From an uncultured Fodinibius sp. (lineage in GTDB: Bacteria; Bacteroidota; Rhodothermia; Balneolales; Balneolaceae): DNA of 64,000 nucleotides. The DNA lies in the NCBI GenBank assembly GCA_913056455.1, contig CAJXMJ010000002.1, positions 911,665 to 975,664 of the forward strand, written 5' to 3'. Each line of letters starts with the position of its first letter. The stretch's first letter is position 1. The notes beneath the pieces are model-generated. The model had not been told where the DNA came from and ran no database searches. It saw only the letters and a list, made by a program, of their open reading frames with translations. The position numbers and the translations under genes were made by a program. Shown here piece after piece: positions 13,141 to 19,405 of the stretch.

Positions 13141-14874
13141 TTAGCCAGTCACATCTTCATAATCAGCCAGACGAGAACTTTCGTCCTCCTCATCAATGAG
13201 TTCGAGTATGTGGGAAACGGCTTCGTGAGGATCGCGATAAAAATGATCTTTGCCCACAAATTCACGTAATCCTGATTTGTCGATTACATCACGTATCGGC
13301 CCTTTAAGTCCGGTAATGTAAAGTTCAATATCCCAATTTTTAAGGGTGCCCACCATCGTTTTTATTTGTTCAACAGCTGTAGTATCGAGGGTATTTATGG
13401 TACTGCCATCAATAATGACATAGCGTGTTGACTTATTTCGCTGCCGGCTTTTCTTGATGATATAATCCCGGAAAAAGTCAGCGTTAACGAAAGAAAATGA
13501 GGCGTCTACACGAAGAATCATTAGCCTATTAATGGGTTTGGCCTCGGGATTGCGTTCTAAATCTTTAAACAAGCGCGTACCTGGAATAATCCCAAGCTCT
13601 GCTACGTTGGGTCGGCTGTATTTGTATAGCATGTGAATCATGGAGGCGACAACGCCAAGTAGAATACCTTCTTGTATGCCTATTAAAAGAGTACATGCAG
13701 CCGTAAAAATTGCAATGAATCCCTCGCTTCGCTTGGTTTTATAGAGAAATTTAAATTCGCCAATATCAATGAGGTTGAGGGCCGAAACAATAATAATGGC
13801 CGCTAGTATTGGCATGGGCAGGAAGTAGAAAATAGGAGTCAAAAACAGAAGCGTGGCGATGATAACGACAGAGGTTATAATATTGGCCAGTGGTGTTTGG
13901 ACGTTAGCCTGCTCTGATGCCGCTGATCTCGAAAAACTGCCAGAAACGGGAATGGATTTAAAAAAGCTGCCAAAGAAGTTAGAGGCGCCAATGGCTACCA
14001 GCTCGTGGTTGGCATCGATAATATAATTGTGGCGTTTGGCAAATGTTTGCCCCAGCGAAGCTACGCTCATAAACTGGACGAGCGCCAAGGTAAGAGCCGT
14101 AGGCAAAAGCTCCCGCATATTATTAAAATTTATTGCTGGCAGAGAAAGTGCGGGCAATCCTGTTGGAATATCACCCACTAATTGGATTCCGAGCTGATTA
14201 GCTCCTAATATCCACGATAAAAGAATACTGAGGGTTAAGATAACCACCGAAATGGGGAATATGGGTTTCACATATCGAACAATTGCCATTATAACGATAG
14301 CGATGAGCCCCCAGGAAAATGTTTGCCAGTGTATCTGATCAAACTCCCAGGTTAGTTCTTCAATAAGAACAAAAATGTACTGGGTTTGGGAAAGCTCGAT
14401 TCCCAATAAATTATTGACTTGGCTAAATGCAATAATGATGGGAGCTGCAAGTGTAAAGCCGGCAATAACCGGGCGTGAGAAAATATTAAGGACCGATCCA
14501 AGTCGCATCGATCCCATCAACAGCTGCATGCCACCAGCCATCATGGTGAGTAAGATTGTGAGCGTGATATAGCGATCAGTGTTCGGTTCTGCAAGCAGGC
14601 TAACCCCCGCAGCTACAATCAGCATGTCGATGGCTACGGGACCGATAGAAAGGTTTTTGGAGGTACCCAATAGTGGATATATAAGCAATGGAATAACACC
14701 GGCATATAATCCGTAGATGGGTGGGACGCCTGCGATAACGGCATAAGCCATCCCCTGGGGGATAAACATGACACCCGTCGTAAGGCCGGCTGTAAGATCG
14801 CCACCAAACTTTTGGCTGTCATAGTTGGGCAGCCACTCGGCAATTCTAAATGTTTTTCGTAGCCATTCTTCCAT
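13141..14874 (-). CDS. SulP-family anion transporter with STAS domain
   Basis: A 577-residue SulP/SLC26 transporter. The N-terminal region has the family signature (GLTTGVMFIPQGMAYAVIAG, about 29-48) and ten or more membrane segments; the cytoplasmic C-terminal STAS domain spans about 435-560, including YVIIDGSTINTLDTTAV. Bacterial SulP proteins carry sulfate, bicarbonate, nitrate or dicarboxylates with sodium or protons, and the substrate is not readable here. It follows the SLC13 gene by 100 bp on the same strand, giving two anion carriers side by side. Confidence 0.9.
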   Translation of the reverse strand: MEEWLRKTFRIAEWLPNYDSQKFGGDLTAGLTTGVMFIPQGMAYAVIAGVPPIYGLYAGVIPLLIYPLLGTSKNLSIGPVAIDMLIVAAGVSLLAEPNTDRYITLTILLTMMAGGMQLLMGSMRLGSVLNIFSRPVIAGFTLAAPIIIAFSQVNNLLGIELSQTQYIFVLIEELTWEFDQIHWQTFSWGLIAIVIMAIVRYVKPIFPISVVILTLSILLSWILGANQLGIQLVGDIPTGLPALSLPAINFNNMRELLPTALTLALVQFMSVASLGQTFAKRHNYIIDANHELVAIGASNFFGSFFKSIPVSGSFSRSAASEQANVQTPLANIITSVVIIATLLFLTPIFYFLPMPILAAIIIVSALNLIDIGEFKFLYKTKRSEGFIAIFTAACTLLIGIQEGILLGVVASMIHMLYKYSRPNVAELGIIPGTRLFKDLERNPEAKPINRLMILRVDASFSFVNADFFRDYIIKKSRQRNKSTRYVIIDGSTINTLDTTAVEQIKTMVGTLKNWDIELYITGLKGPIRDVIDKSGLREFVGKDHFYRDPHEAVSHILELIDEEDESSRLADYEDVTG

Positions 14875-14974: not shown

Positions 14975-16753
14975 TTATAAAGGCCAGATAATAGGAATAA
15001 AGATGGTAGCAAGAATCCAGAAAAGGAAATTTAGAGGAAGGCCTACCTTTGTAAAGTCGGTAAATTTATATTGTCCTGCCCCATAAATAAGGGTATTGGC
15101 ATGATGTCCGAACGGAGTGATAAACGTCAGGCAAGCGGCATAGCTAACTGCTAAAACCATGGGTTGAGCATTGACCCCAATCTGATTAGCTATTTGAATG
15201 GCAATGGGGGCTAGTAATGCTACAGATGCATTGGTCGAAATTACTGCTGTTATTGACATGGTGAGCAGATAAAGTCCCGATAAGACCGCTATTGGTCCGA
15301 AATCATACAATACGGAGATTACGGATTCTGCAATAAGGGCTGCCGCTCCTGTTTTGTCCATGGCCGTTCCCAACGGAAGTACGCCCACAAGAAGCATAAT
15401 CACTTTCCAGTTGATGGCATTATATGCTTCTTCTGTAGTAATGCAGCCGGTCAGAATCATCAAGATGACCCCGGCTGGCGCACTGACTACAATAGGAGCA
15501 AGGTTAAAGGCCGCAGTTCCCACAACGCCCGCTAATATGGCCAAAGCGATATAGGTTTTGTCCGTGCGGGGTCGCATGATATCTACTTCGGATGATATGA
15601 CAAATGAGGGGTCGTTGCTGATATCTTGCAGGCGATCACTACTCAGGCTGAGCAGAAGTGTATCGCCACCGGAAATATGAACTTCTTTCAAGTCTTCCTG
15701 TTTAAGCTCTCCGTGATGGCGAATGGCTAACGGGATAGCCCCAAATCGTTCGTAGAAGTCAATATCCTTGAGTTTGCGCCCCTCAAGTGTTGATTCGGGA
15801 GCCACGGCGGCTTCGACCAGGGCATCACGTCCGTGTTTAAGGTCTACGTCCACCCATTCTGAGCTGGGTACTAGTGAAAGGTCTTCGCGCCTGAGAAGCT
15901 TGTCAATTTCTGAGGCTCTGCCCCTTACCCGAAGAATGTCACCGGCTTCAATCTTCGTTTTTGTACGTGTAGCAGAGGAGTCGCTGGCTGTTTTAAAAAT
16001 GCGAAGAATATCTAAATCAAGCTCCTCAGTGAGGTTTTCTTCATCTAAAAATTCGCCGACCAAATGAGATTCTGGTTCAACGAGTAAGTCAGTCAGGTAG
16101 CCCTGGATTTGAAAGTCTGTTGTCAGCTCATCGTCTTTCCGACGAGCAGGAATAAGATTATATCCCGCCAGGTACATGTAGAGAAATCCCCCGGTAAGTA
16201 AAATGAGCCCCATCGGCGCAAAATCAAACATTGTGAAGGCTTGGCCACCTCGTTCCTGGACTATGGAGCTGACAAGCAGATTTGTAGAGGTACCGATAAG
16301 CGTGTTGATTCCGCCCATTATGCCTGCAAAGGCCAAGGGCATTAACAACTTAGAAGCACTGACGCCTATTCTTGCTGCTATATCAATCACCACCGGGATA
16401 AATATCATTATTACGGCGGTGTTGTTCATAAATGAGGAGGCAAAACTGACAAACAGCAGCATGATAAAAAGCCACAGCCAGTAATTTTTCTCCATCTTAT
16501 CACAAAAAAAGTTGCCGGCTTTATTTAAAAGCCCGGTTCTTCGCACTCCTTCGCTGATAACAAACATTGCTGCGATGGTAATGGTGGCCGGGTTACTGAC
16601 TCCAGCAAAACCTTCTTGTGGGGTAAGGATCCCTGATGCTAAAAGACAAACCACCAGAATGATAGAAGCAACATCAAAGGAGACATAATCGGTTGCAAAT
16701 AAGAATAGGGCAACCCCCAGAAGAGCAAAAATAAAGAGTATTTCGAATGACAT
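14975..16753 (-). CDS. SLC13-family permease with two TrkA-C (RCK_C) domains
   Basis: A 592-residue divalent anion:sodium symporter family permease. Membrane segments flank a cytosolic insert (about 205-385) with two RCK_C/TrkA-C-like domains, for example AGDILRVRGRASEIDKLL and SGGDTLLLSLSSDRLQDI. Conserved permease motifs are SFASSFMNNTAVIMIFIPVV, GGINTLIGTSTNLLVSS and the second-half STNASVALLAPIAI. Members with this layout move sulfate or dicarboxylates. The insert probably senses a ligand or nucleotide; that is inference. It lies 36 bp after the S46-like gene and before SulP, so all three may share a transcript. Confidence 0.88.
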   Translation of the reverse strand: MSFEILFIFALLGVALFLFATDYVSFDVASIILVVCLLASGILTPQEGFAGVSNPATITIAAMFVISEGVRRTGLLNKAGNFFCDKMEKNYWLWLFIMLLFVSFASSFMNNTAVIMIFIPVVIDIAARIGVSASKLLMPLAFAGIMGGINTLIGTSTNLLVSSIVQERGGQAFTMFDFAPMGLILLTGGFLYMYLAGYNLIPARRKDDELTTDFQIQGYLTDLLVEPESHLVGEFLDEENLTEELDLDILRIFKTASDSSATRTKTKIEAGDILRVRGRASEIDKLLRREDLSLVPSSEWVDVDLKHGRDALVEAAVAPESTLEGRKLKDIDFYERFGAIPLAIRHHGELKQEDLKEVHISGGDTLLLSLSSDRLQDISNDPSFVISSEVDIMRPRTDKTYIALAILAGVVGTAAFNLAPIVVSAPAGVILMILTGCITTEEAYNAINWKVIMLLVGVLPLGTAMDKTGAAALIAESVISVLYDFGPIAVLSGLYLLTMSITAVISTNASVALLAPIAIQIANQIGVNAQPMVLAVSYAACLTFITPFGHHANTLIYGAGQYKFTDFTKVGLPLNFLFWILATIFIPIIWPL

Positions 16754-16789: not shown

Positions 16790-18937
16790 TCATTTTTCTC
16801 TTAAAATCTGCATTTCTCTTAACAAGCTTGAGTCGTTATACATTTCCGTAATTCGAGAGATAATATGTCGAATATCGAGGTTGACTGTATGGGATAATTC
16901 GGGCATATAAAGAAGATCATTGACCATGCTTGAAGAGTTTCTTTTTACGATGATGCCAATCAGTTTCCCATTGTTATTTAGGACCGGGCTCCCTAAGCTT
17001 CCTCCCGTCATATCATTGGTTGTAACAAAACTTTTTATTCCGAGATTACCATCAGTTGATATCGCTGTAGATTTGTTGGGCCCTTTTTCTTGTAGGTTTT
17101 TAACCCGGCCCATACTTAGGCGAAGCGTCCCGTTCGCATCGGGATCGGTAATCGAATCGTTGCGAAACTCAAGCAATCCTTGTACATAAAGTTCTTGCGC
17201 CGGTTGCAAGTAGGGTAGATGCTGAGAATAGTTCTGGCGACTGAATTGGTAACTGTTCAGTAGTTCTTCATAAAGTGTTATTAATTCATCTTTGGGATGA
17301 TTTCGGATACTGTCTGCCGGAAGACTTAGAAACTGCTCGGCGCGCTGAAGATCAAAAATGATTGATCCTGATTGCTGTTTTTGCAGGTAGGCTTGAATAC
17401 TTTGTTTTAGTTTCGCGTCCCGGGTATCGTCGAAAAGTTCTATGAGATGAAAGGGGACTTTTCCCTCAGGCAAAGAAGCCAACGTATAAAGCATATCCTC
17501 GAGTATCATAGTTTGGGCTTCGATATTTATTTCATCCAGAATATTTTGATGCCGTTGTAAAAGCGCTCGCTTCTTGGCGCTGTTGACTTTGGCATTTGTT
17601 GTATCGCGAATATGCTGATAGTACGATTGGTACAGTCCGGCTATTTGCAGGAGCTTACTGTTATTAATGGTATTGATTAAGGCAAAGAGAAGATCGCCGG
17701 TTTGGGAGGCTATGCTATAAGATTGATCAAGCTGACTTAGCACACGACGGTACTTAAGGTTGCGAAGGGAATCTTTTTTAATCCACTTCTTAAATACTTC
17801 TTCCTCTGCTTGTTTTTTGGTAATGATGTTGTGTTTATCAATCCCCTGTTGTAATGCTTGGTAATAAGTAAGATTGTGATTAAGTGAGGAGCGAATCGGG
17901 GCGTTTTCGATGGCTTTTGTTGAATCCTGCCCGGCTGCGTATTTGTTTGCATTGAGAATAGTTTTATAGGTATCAATAAGTACTGGATTTCGAATTTCCT
18001 CATAGAATTTGACTGCGAAGCTGCTTTCATAACGCTGCGTTTTACAGGGGAAACCAAGGCTTAGCGTAACGTCTTGAGGGTTGGGTTCGTTATCAGCTAT
18101 TTCGATATGTTTCTGAGGTCTGAAAGGAACATTGGTTTTGTTATATGGTTTGCTTTGTCCATTCGGGCTTACATATCCTCTCAAAAAGGCGTAACTGGCT
18201 ATGTTTTCGATGTTGGGATTTGGTGGAGCATGGACCAGTCGGACATCTCGAATTAATTTATAAACTAACATAAATTGTCGGTTACCGCCCCAGGTATCGT
18301 TGATTTTCACCACCAAGTTATTGCTGTGGGATTGCCGTTCAGCAATCATTTCCTCTTTGATCTGCTGAATTTGCTTTTTCTGCCGGCGATAGGTTAGGGA
18401 GTCAGGGAGCTGTCGGTTGATCTGGTCAGTTACCTCTTTCTGTTCAATAGTGATAAGCAGGTTATAGTCTTCGAGCGGTATTTCTTGTTCTCGAGATTCC
18501 GCAGAAAACCCATTGTGAAGATAGTTTTGGTTAATATTGCTGTTTTGTGCAATACCCTTGATGGCGGTACTGTAATTGGTGAGAATAAGCCCATTTGGGG
18601 ATACAAATGACCCGGTTCCTGCTTGATTGTCACCGATTTTTATCTTTGCTACGGCTTGGTTAAGGGAGGGGTTGTCAGAGCTATACAATTCTTTTTGTGA
18701 AAGGTTAATACCTTGTGATTGAACTTTTTTGTAGAGTGATCCGTGGATTTGCGGGAGCAGCCACAACCCGGAAAGGTCCGAGGTTCTATCGGCAGAAACT
18801 GTTGAACGCTCGCTTGCAGTATTGGTGGAATCAGATTGTTGGACATTTGCAGGAGAGGAACATCCTCCTCCAAAAAGAAGGAGTAGCAGGATTACTGAGA
18901 ATGAGCTTCGTAATATGTTGAGAGCGGCTTGCTGCAT
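16790..18937 (-). CDS. S46-family peptidase homologue (lipoprotein) lacking the catalytic triad
   Basis: A 715-residue predicted lipoprotein (LLFGGGC, lipid Cys26) related throughout to the dipeptidyl-peptidase 7/11 family (S46). Family blocks are clear: TGSFVSPNGLILTN (108-121), LIRDVRLVHAPP (228-239), LGFPCKTQRYESS (294-306) and GGSLGSPVLN (645-654). In active enzymes the first block continues HHC, with the catalytic His; here it reads YST. The second block should be followed by a GGDxDNWxWPRHTGDF-type stretch with the catalytic Asp; here about 20 residues are missing. The nucleophile in GGNSGSP is Leu648. It is therefore probably not a peptidase but a periplasmic peptide-binding or scaffolding relative. 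Downstream SLC13 begins 36 bp away. Start ATG is supported by the signal peptide. Confidence 0.75.
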   Translation of the reverse strand: MQQAALNILRSSFSVILLLLLFGGGCSSPANVQQSDSTNTASERSTVSADRTSDLSGLWLLPQIHGSLYKKVQSQGINLSQKELYSSDNPSLNQAVAKIKIGDNQAGTGSFVSPNGLILTNYSTAIKGIAQNSNINQNYLHNGFSAESREQEIPLEDYNLLITIEQKEVTDQINRQLPDSLTYRRQKKQIQQIKEEMIAERQSHSNNLVVKINDTWGGNRQFMLVYKLIRDVRLVHAPPNPNIENIASYAFLRGYVSPNGQSKPYNKTNVPFRPQKHIEIADNEPNPQDVTLSLGFPCKTQRYESSFAVKFYEEIRNPVLIDTYKTILNANKYAAGQDSTKAIENAPIRSSLNHNLTYYQALQQGIDKHNIITKKQAEEEVFKKWIKKDSLRNLKYRRVLSQLDQSYSIASQTGDLLFALINTINNSKLLQIAGLYQSYYQHIRDTTNAKVNSAKKRALLQRHQNILDEINIEAQTMILEDMLYTLASLPEGKVPFHLIELFDDTRDAKLKQSIQAYLQKQQSGSIIFDLQRAEQFLSLPADSIRNHPKDELITLYEELLNSYQFSRQNYSQHLPYLQPAQELYVQGLLEFRNDSITDPDANGTLRLSMGRVKNLQEKGPNKSTAISTDGNLGIKSFVTTNDMTGGSLGSPVLNNNGKLIGIIVKRNSSSMVNDLLYMPELSHTVNLDIRHIISRITEMYNDSSLLREMQILREK

Positions 18938-19054: not shown

Positions 19055-19405
19055 ATGAATTACAAGCACAAGTTTTTTTATCTCTGTAAAACGCCACTTA
19101 GCGCTGAAGGTCCCGAGGATGTTGAAGTTATTGACCGGGCTGAAAGCAGTGATGAATTCCCTGAGCTATTTAAAGAGTATGAGGAACTGCGATCTCATGC
19201 GTTTAATGAAGATAAGCTTTACAGCATTATCCGTGCTGATGACGTGTATGAGATTTTGCGTACGGGCACGGAGCAAGAGGCCAAGGATATGGCTTTTGAC
19301 AAGGCTCAGAAGGAGATTATTACGAACTTGCAGCATAGGGTGATGCAGGAAGATGATAAAGAGGCAAAAGCCATTCTTAAAGAAGTGCATGATGTTGAAT
19401 CGTAG
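19055..19405 (+). CDS. Small acidic helical hypothetical protein
   Basis: A 116-residue soluble protein that I do not recognise. It has no signal peptide or membrane segment, begins MNYKHKFFYLCKT, and is otherwise strongly acidic with mostly helical sequence in its second half (EQEAKDMAFDKAQKEIITNL). Codon choice looks like its neighbours. The pseudouridine synthase gene starts 39 bp downstream on the same strand, so the two may be co-transcribed. It could be a small Bacteroidota-type conserved hypothetical; no function is proposed. Confidence 0.6.
   Translation: MNYKHKFFYLCKTPLSAEGPEDVEVIDRAESSDEFPELFKEYEELRSHAFNEDKLYSIIRADDVYEILRTGTEQEAKDMAFDKAQKEIITNLQHRVMQEDDKEAKAILKEVHDVES

Follow-up and report, generated by a model that had tools for sequence, protein, structure and literature searches.

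The 64,000-nucleotide stretch of DNA that we analyzed (the window) comes from a salt-loving bacterium of the genus Fodinibius and carries a gene of the S46 peptidase family whose product, judged by its residues, is a real non-peptidase. Other residues occupy all three positions of the catalytic triad, and the gene has nonetheless stayed under constraint. We propose, with a probability of about 0.5, that the catalytic His was lost in a shared ancestor and that the product was kept as a non-hydrolytic envelope protein acting through its cap or surface. The gene, its cap and the codons at the decisive positions, the latter placed by alignment with coordinates computed from residue number, are as follows:

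16790..18937, minus strand: S46-family non-peptidase of 715 aa with an ATG start, probable lipoprotein (GGGC, Cys26), identified by PF10459 and PDB homologues
17141..18118, minus strand: alpha-helical cap domain, residues 274–599, with an approximate boundary set by alignment
18569..18571, minus strand: codon of Ser123, at the catalytic His position (His84 of SmDPP7, His85 of PgDPP11)
18194..18196, minus strand: codon of Ser248, at the catalytic Asp position (Asp222 of SmDPP7, Asp227 of PgDPP11)
17876..17878, minus strand: codon of His354 in the helical cap, at the position of Asn328, which anchors the substrate N-terminus (role from the accessible part of PMC8041751)
16994..16996, minus strand: codon of Leu648, at the catalytic Ser position (Ser655)
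16943..16945, minus strand: codon of Lys665, at the position of Asp672, which anchors the substrate N-terminus (role from the same source)

The protein matches Pfam PF10459 (Peptidase_S46) at 354.8 bits against a cut-off of 22, in two stretches that cover positions 4–573 and 623–698 of the 698 in the profile. Solved DPP11 and DAP BII chains were matched with E-values down to 2.7e-47 by the single protein (11 distinct sequences), and a profile of seven Fodinibius sequences reached 3.2e-98 against PDB chains, again with 11 distinct sequences. The score against the NCBIfam equivalog for the dipeptidyl-peptidase Dpp7 was 241.2 bits, below the curated cut-off of 1200 bits. By alignment only, the cap is inserted in the double barrel at residues about 274–599; a structure predicted from five sequences had a mean pLDDT of 34.5, too poor for use. 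Near the N-terminus, Cys26 follows a hydrophobic stretch ending in GGG, a lipobox that we read by eye, and its column holds an aligned Cys in 14 of 15 aligned proteins. A strict lipobox pattern left the GGGC of the window protein unflagged; it flagged 5/7 of the full-length intact orthologues described below and 6/14 of the inactive ones, the window protein not being among these six. The window protein is probably lipid-anchored, and the same counts, set against each other, lend no support to the idea that the anchor was acquired with inactivation.

In PgDPP11, according to the accessible part of PMC6753110, the triad is His85-Asp227-Ser655 and the N-terminus of the substrate is recognised by Asn218, Trp219, Asn333 and Asp672. 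In the numbering of SmDPP7, the triad is His84, Asp222 and Ser655 and the anchors are Asn213, Trp214, Asn328 and Asp672 (PMC8041751, in the part available). When the window protein was aligned to PgDPP11 (4xzy) and residues were counted along the printed alignment, Ser123 fell on His85, Ser248 on Asp227 and Leu648 on Ser655, which bears out the initial annotation in describing an S46-family relative without a working triad. The same annotation held that the region of the catalytic Asp was deleted, and this was half right: ∼12 residues just ahead of the Asp position are deleted, the Asn213/Trp214 pair included, but the protein still has a residue at that position, Ser248. In G003, the closest orthologue at 70% identity, the same deletion is seen, yet the catalytic position holds an Asp. 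The other two anchors are also gone from the window protein, with Asn328 replaced by His354 and Asp672 by Lys665, and a segment ahead of the catalytic Ser position is missing as well. Since the TNYS and GGSLGSP motifs align free of gaps and the states seen here recur, in the same or a related form, in close orthologues, an alignment accident or a frameshift is ruled out. Among S, T, C, H, D, E and K, we found no residue that the inactive groups have fixed and the intact group lacks, and with no fitting residue newly fixed, we rejected an active site rebuilt elsewhere in the protein as well. From these replacements, we infer that the window protein cannot cut by the S46 mechanism.

To place this protein among its relatives, we used a profile of 15 aligned proteins. 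A scan of genome contigs with the single protein returned no relative, and a scan with an alignment returned four loci. Across 244 genomes of the class, full-length members of the orthogroup scored at or above 745 bits, cut members 260–533 bits and the next S46 protein 222 bits; the 15 rows of the profile score high by construction, and six g19/g20 members outside the profile scored 755–796 bits. The gene is present in 7 of 12 Fodinibius genomes, and family-wide, any S46 match at all was found in 31 of 92 genomes and 7 of 21 genera. The relatives include Aliifodinibius salipaludis (G003), Fodinibius halophilus (G004) and an uncultured Aliifodinibius (G009); in NCBI taxonomy the two named species stand as F. 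salipaludis and F. halophilus in the genus Fodinibius of the family Balneolaceae.

Among these positional orthologues the active site is found in graded states. In the seven intact full-length orthologues (five from g19, one from g20 and that of G047, of another family), His, Asp, Ser and the four anchors are all present, and in three cut g19 orthologues every visible residue is intact. These seven have Gly at position 673, the DPP7-type residue by a rule taken from the accessible part of PMC8048996. In the seven Fodinibius copies, the His is replaced every time (Ser, Ser, Arg, Gln, Arg, Asn, Tyr), the Ser in five and the Asp in two, and in the seven copies from three sister genera (g6, g10 and g13) all three triad residues are replaced in every copy. 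The Fodinibius copy of G010 stands at one end of the series: Asn213, Trp214, Asp222, Asn328, Ser655 and Asp672 are kept, leaving the His as the only loss among triad and anchors, though its pocket has Thr at 218, Leu at 671 and Ser at 673. The catalytic machinery appears to have been lost stepwise. Close orthologues with a full triad, which the initial annotation held would speak against an inactive relative, were found in part: the intact ones occur only in other genera, at 34–38% identity. A second intact S46 lineage (about 726–755 aa, 18–21% identical to the window protein) occurs in other genera and families of the order (L019, L026, L042 and others).

We built quick trees, without bootstraps, to follow the change of state. 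The tree from all columns groups the 14 inactive copies as a clade (support 100, starred), with g6, g10 and g13 unresolved among Fodinibius; another such tree places them inside it. With the active-site columns removed, Fodinibius forms one clade (97, starred) and the 14 inactive rows form one clade (94, below the starred level), and one change of state suffices. A tree of six neighbour genes groups Fodinibius and g6/g10/g13 as separate clades with g19 alongside, the three-way fork staying open. The trees and the residue states together support a single inactive clade in which the His was probably the first to go, while leaving room for separate losses of the catalytic His in different lineages.

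The chromosomal setting of the gene is conserved beyond Fodinibius. Three neighbours in the window are needed for the comparison:

14975..16753, minus strand: DASS/CitMHS-type transporter with TrkA_C domains, directly downstream, kept in 5/5 congeners without the S46 gene
13141..14874, minus strand: SulP-type anion permease with a STAS domain, downstream, kept in 5/5 congeners without the S46 gene
19055..19405, plus strand: 116-aa protein of unknown function, the divergent neighbour, adjoining the S46 gene in 19/19 neighbourhoods

All 14 inactive copies lie at the same chromosomal place as the intact orthologues (19/19 neighbourhoods; for the intact G115 and G096, the check covered the adjoining 116-aa gene, by coordinates), and a SixA-like gene lies near the other end of the S46 gene in 18 of the 19. 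The DASS and SulP genes stand between the S46 gene and the SixA-like gene in Fodinibius only (7/7), and none of the seven inactive copies in g6, g10 and g13 has a DASS gene beside it. The initial annotation had placed the gene in line with transporter genes. The co-directional DASS/CitMHS-type and SulP-type genes are indeed there, but the link is a weak one: all five Fodinibius genomes without the S46 gene retain both transporters at that place, so the transporters are independent of the S46 gene. For the same reason, together with the missing DASS gene in g6, g10 and g13, we rejected an operon with the transporters as a necessary link.

Some further features of this place were seen along the way. 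In G008, a Fodinibius genome without the S46 gene, short remnants of both ends of that gene lie between the DASS and 116-aa genes (L170, 11700–12260). The DASS protein at the syntenic place in G003 (A. salipaludis; L067, 9624–11438) is 29–31% identical to those of six other Fodinibius, five of which are 64–83% identical to that of the window; by this divergence, it looks like the G003 transporter was replaced in place. The 116-aa protein belongs to no Pfam family, has a best NCBIfam match far below cut-off and is present in 120 of 128 genomes of the order.

We then asked which parts of the protein are being held by selection. From the accessible part of PMC8041751 we took 24 active-site positions, and at 21 of them the seven intact orthologues show no variation. 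The mean retention of these 21 is 0.476 in Fodinibius copies, compared with 0.709 for the 177 other invariant positions (permutation p 0.0026), and 0.109 in the g6/g10/g13 copies, compared with 0.449 (0 of 20 000 permutations), with deleted positions scored as lost and neighbouring positions not independent in both counts. The cleft is eroding faster than the rest of the protein. The gene as a whole is nevertheless constrained: all 14 inactive copies are still open reading frames (648–756 aa) at 26–70% identity to the window protein, which, with the missing His in 7/7 Fodinibius copies, upholds the earlier description of a conserved, exported but inactive S46 relative. In a simulation of neutral substitution, a frame stayed free of stops in only 1 of 2000 runs at 0.1 substitutions per site and in 0 of 2000 at 0.3.

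The ratio omega between the window gene and its closest orthologue in G003 is 0.152 (bootstrap 0.113–0.196), a value that this pair alone supports (G000–G003, dS 1.26), since dS in the other four S46 pairs is above 1.5 or not computable. By part, omega is 0.82 for the signal and linker, 0.137 for the N-barrel, 0.105 for the cap (dS 1.70) and 0.160 for the C-barrel, the cap being lowest among the parts compared. In the same pair, six neighbour genes gave 0.025–0.055, the SixA-like gene 0.143, close to the S46 value, and the DASS gene 0.271, its dS being saturated. Across four inactive pairs, the dN of the S46 gene is 3.5–4.2 times the mean of four neighbour genes (116-aa, MATE, MscS and DUF349), and in the single intact pair the same ratio is 2.9. 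Fifteen residues are shared by all seven Fodinibius copies and missing from the intact group; 14 of them belong to the cap and one to the C-barrel, and S, T, C, H, D, E and K are not among the 15. In the cap, the reciprocal count gave 26 residues that the intact group has fixed and Fodinibius lacks, against 18 in the opposite direction. Since the cap differs in both directions, its new residues mark a diverged domain and are no proof of a new function, and we lowered our view of them as a clean sign of one.

In the mechanism that we propose, the common ancestor of Fodinibius and three sister genera had a single-copy DPP7-like S46 gene whose catalytic His would have disappeared, most simply in one event, and whose product would have been kept at the envelope, non-hydrolytic and probably lipid-anchored. 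The lineage of the window would also have lost the Ser and the Asp, the anchors for the N-terminus and two stretches next to the active site, while selection would still hold the fold, the export signal and, most of all, the alpha-helical cap. The most likely mode of action would be a non-catalytic one, in which the cap and outer surface hold or support an envelope partner, as a scaffold or accessory, and no longer peptide N-termini; it is in this sense that we infer the location, mode of action and partner of the window protein. An essential role is argued against by the absence of the gene from 5 of 12 Fodinibius genomes and by the remnants that are all G008 has of it, from which its function must be dispensable. 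DPPIV_N matches over cut-off occur in 12/12 Fodinibius genomes, and such other dipeptidyl peptidases may have made S46 catalysis expendable.

The same distribution would suit a gene on its way out, only weakly useful and decaying since its catalysis became redundant with the other dipeptidyl peptidases. The gene is absent or in remnants in congeners, it evolves faster than most of its neighbours, and the DPPIV_N matches are universal in the genus. We still consider this reading rather unlikely, as a frame evolving neutrally would have gathered stops, whereas 14/14 inactive copies have remained open over a wide range of identities and omega is 0.15. It is also unlikely that the protein is a peptide-binding pseudo-peptidase whose cleft still captures peptides uncut, as a trap or as a feeder for uptake. 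Inactivation as such would permit this: PeDPP11 carrying a Ser-to-Ala change was crystallised together with two dipeptides and with a tetrapeptide (PMC5460201, in its accessible part), and in the G010 copy the His is the one residue missing from triad and anchors. The window protein, however, has lost all four anchors and the segment before the Ser, its active-site positions erode faster than the rest, and even G010 has an altered pocket. Peptide binding, which the initial annotation had named as one of two probable roles, is thus unsupported for the window protein in the manner of S46 enzymes, and would be more credible for G010.

Two further readings are, in our judgment, very improbable. 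That the protein is the inactive partner of an active S46 subunit, in a heterodimer or as a regulator, draws on the fact that S46 enzymes are dimers (PMC8041751, in the part available) and on the inactive S46 genes that lie directly upstream of intact ones in two other families of the class. A PF10459 search of the window genome (G000, 95.87% complete) found no second S46 gene that could supply such a partner, and none of the other six Fodinibius genomes with the gene has a second place for an S46 gene. The earlier suggestion of a helper of another enzyme is therefore disfavoured where that enzyme is an S46 peptidase, though the protein could assist some other enzyme. Just as improbable is an enzyme that still works with a different catalytic set. 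The fold is kept, to go by the sequence, and His 277 and His 573 are invariant in the seven Fodinibius copies and G047; however, the G047 protein in which both His also occur is an intact one, and no nucleophile or acid-base residue has been newly fixed. Our preferred reading remains the non-hydrolytic envelope protein acting through its cap or surface.

Apart from Fodinibius and its sister genera, we looked at S46 genes elsewhere in the class. A control set of 84 S46 ORFs in 70 loci outside the orthogroup was made up of the 30 best phylum-match loci and 40 class matches, and is therefore not random; in it, 70 ORFs have all six tested residues, 8 are cut with the visible ones intact and 6 are degenerate. 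In 15 larger regions, chosen for degenerate or related places, 16 of 26 S46 ORFs are intact and 10 degenerate. Family f12 has a degenerate S46 copy directly upstream of an intact one on the same strand in 5 of 10 chosen regions (one cut by a contig end):

L155, 7839–12401
L156, 3712–8258
L158, 7266–11631
L169, 6876–11331
L159, 5548–9145

In family f13, an almost cap-less double-barrel copy (368–429 aa from stop to stop) lies upstream of an intact S46 gene in 5 of 5 chosen regions:

L162, 6370–9850
L163, 6391–9855
L164, 6295–9610
L165, 6165–9529
L166, 6551–9872

These tandem copies are like those of Fodinibius in being S46 homologues with replaced triad residues. They differ in lying directly upstream of an intact S46 gene, whereas the Fodinibius copies stand alone, and the f13 copies have 38 of about 329 cap positions, whereas the Fodinibius copies keep the cap. 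From this differing place and shape, the inactive copies of f12 and f13 would be independent of the Balneolaceae branch. Non-peptidases of the S46 family might then have arisen at least three times in the class, as a single-copy, cap-driven branch in Balneolaceae and as two tandem types elsewhere, one of them a bare double barrel, with the Fodinibius stages running from G010, which may still hold peptides, to the window protein, with its cleft ruined and its cap in a new binding role; we put this wider picture forward tentatively, as a possibility that we somewhat doubt. The tandem pairs raise the testable question whether hetero-complexes form in a family for which only dimers of a single kind have been described. 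Fodinibius would offer a natural series, within one genus, from an exported peptidase to a non-enzyme whose gene is still under selection, and the data suggest that a set of genes in Balneolaceae and two other families is misnamed as 'dipeptidyl peptidase' or 'Peptidase S46'.

In the open-access literature, as covered by titles and the starts of abstracts of the papers listed, we found no paper on naturally inactive S46 proteins. In Biochimie, Nemoto et al. reportedly distinguished from DPP7 and DPP11 a 'third group' of Bacteroides S46 members, a comparison that goes by the title of that work. CspC and CspA of Clostridioides difficile, as portrayed in the accessible parts of the sources, are likewise relatives of proteases that lack a working triad and have kept a function. 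They are subtilisin-like, however, and act with a related protease or with each other, of which there is no sign here. The nearest comparison is with the S46 enzymes DPP7, DPP11 and DAP BII themselves: the window protein is homologous to them along its length and would share their double barrel with an inserted alpha-helical cap, but it differs in having neither the triad nor the N-terminus anchors, in the short deletion before the Asp position and in the missing segment before the Ser position.
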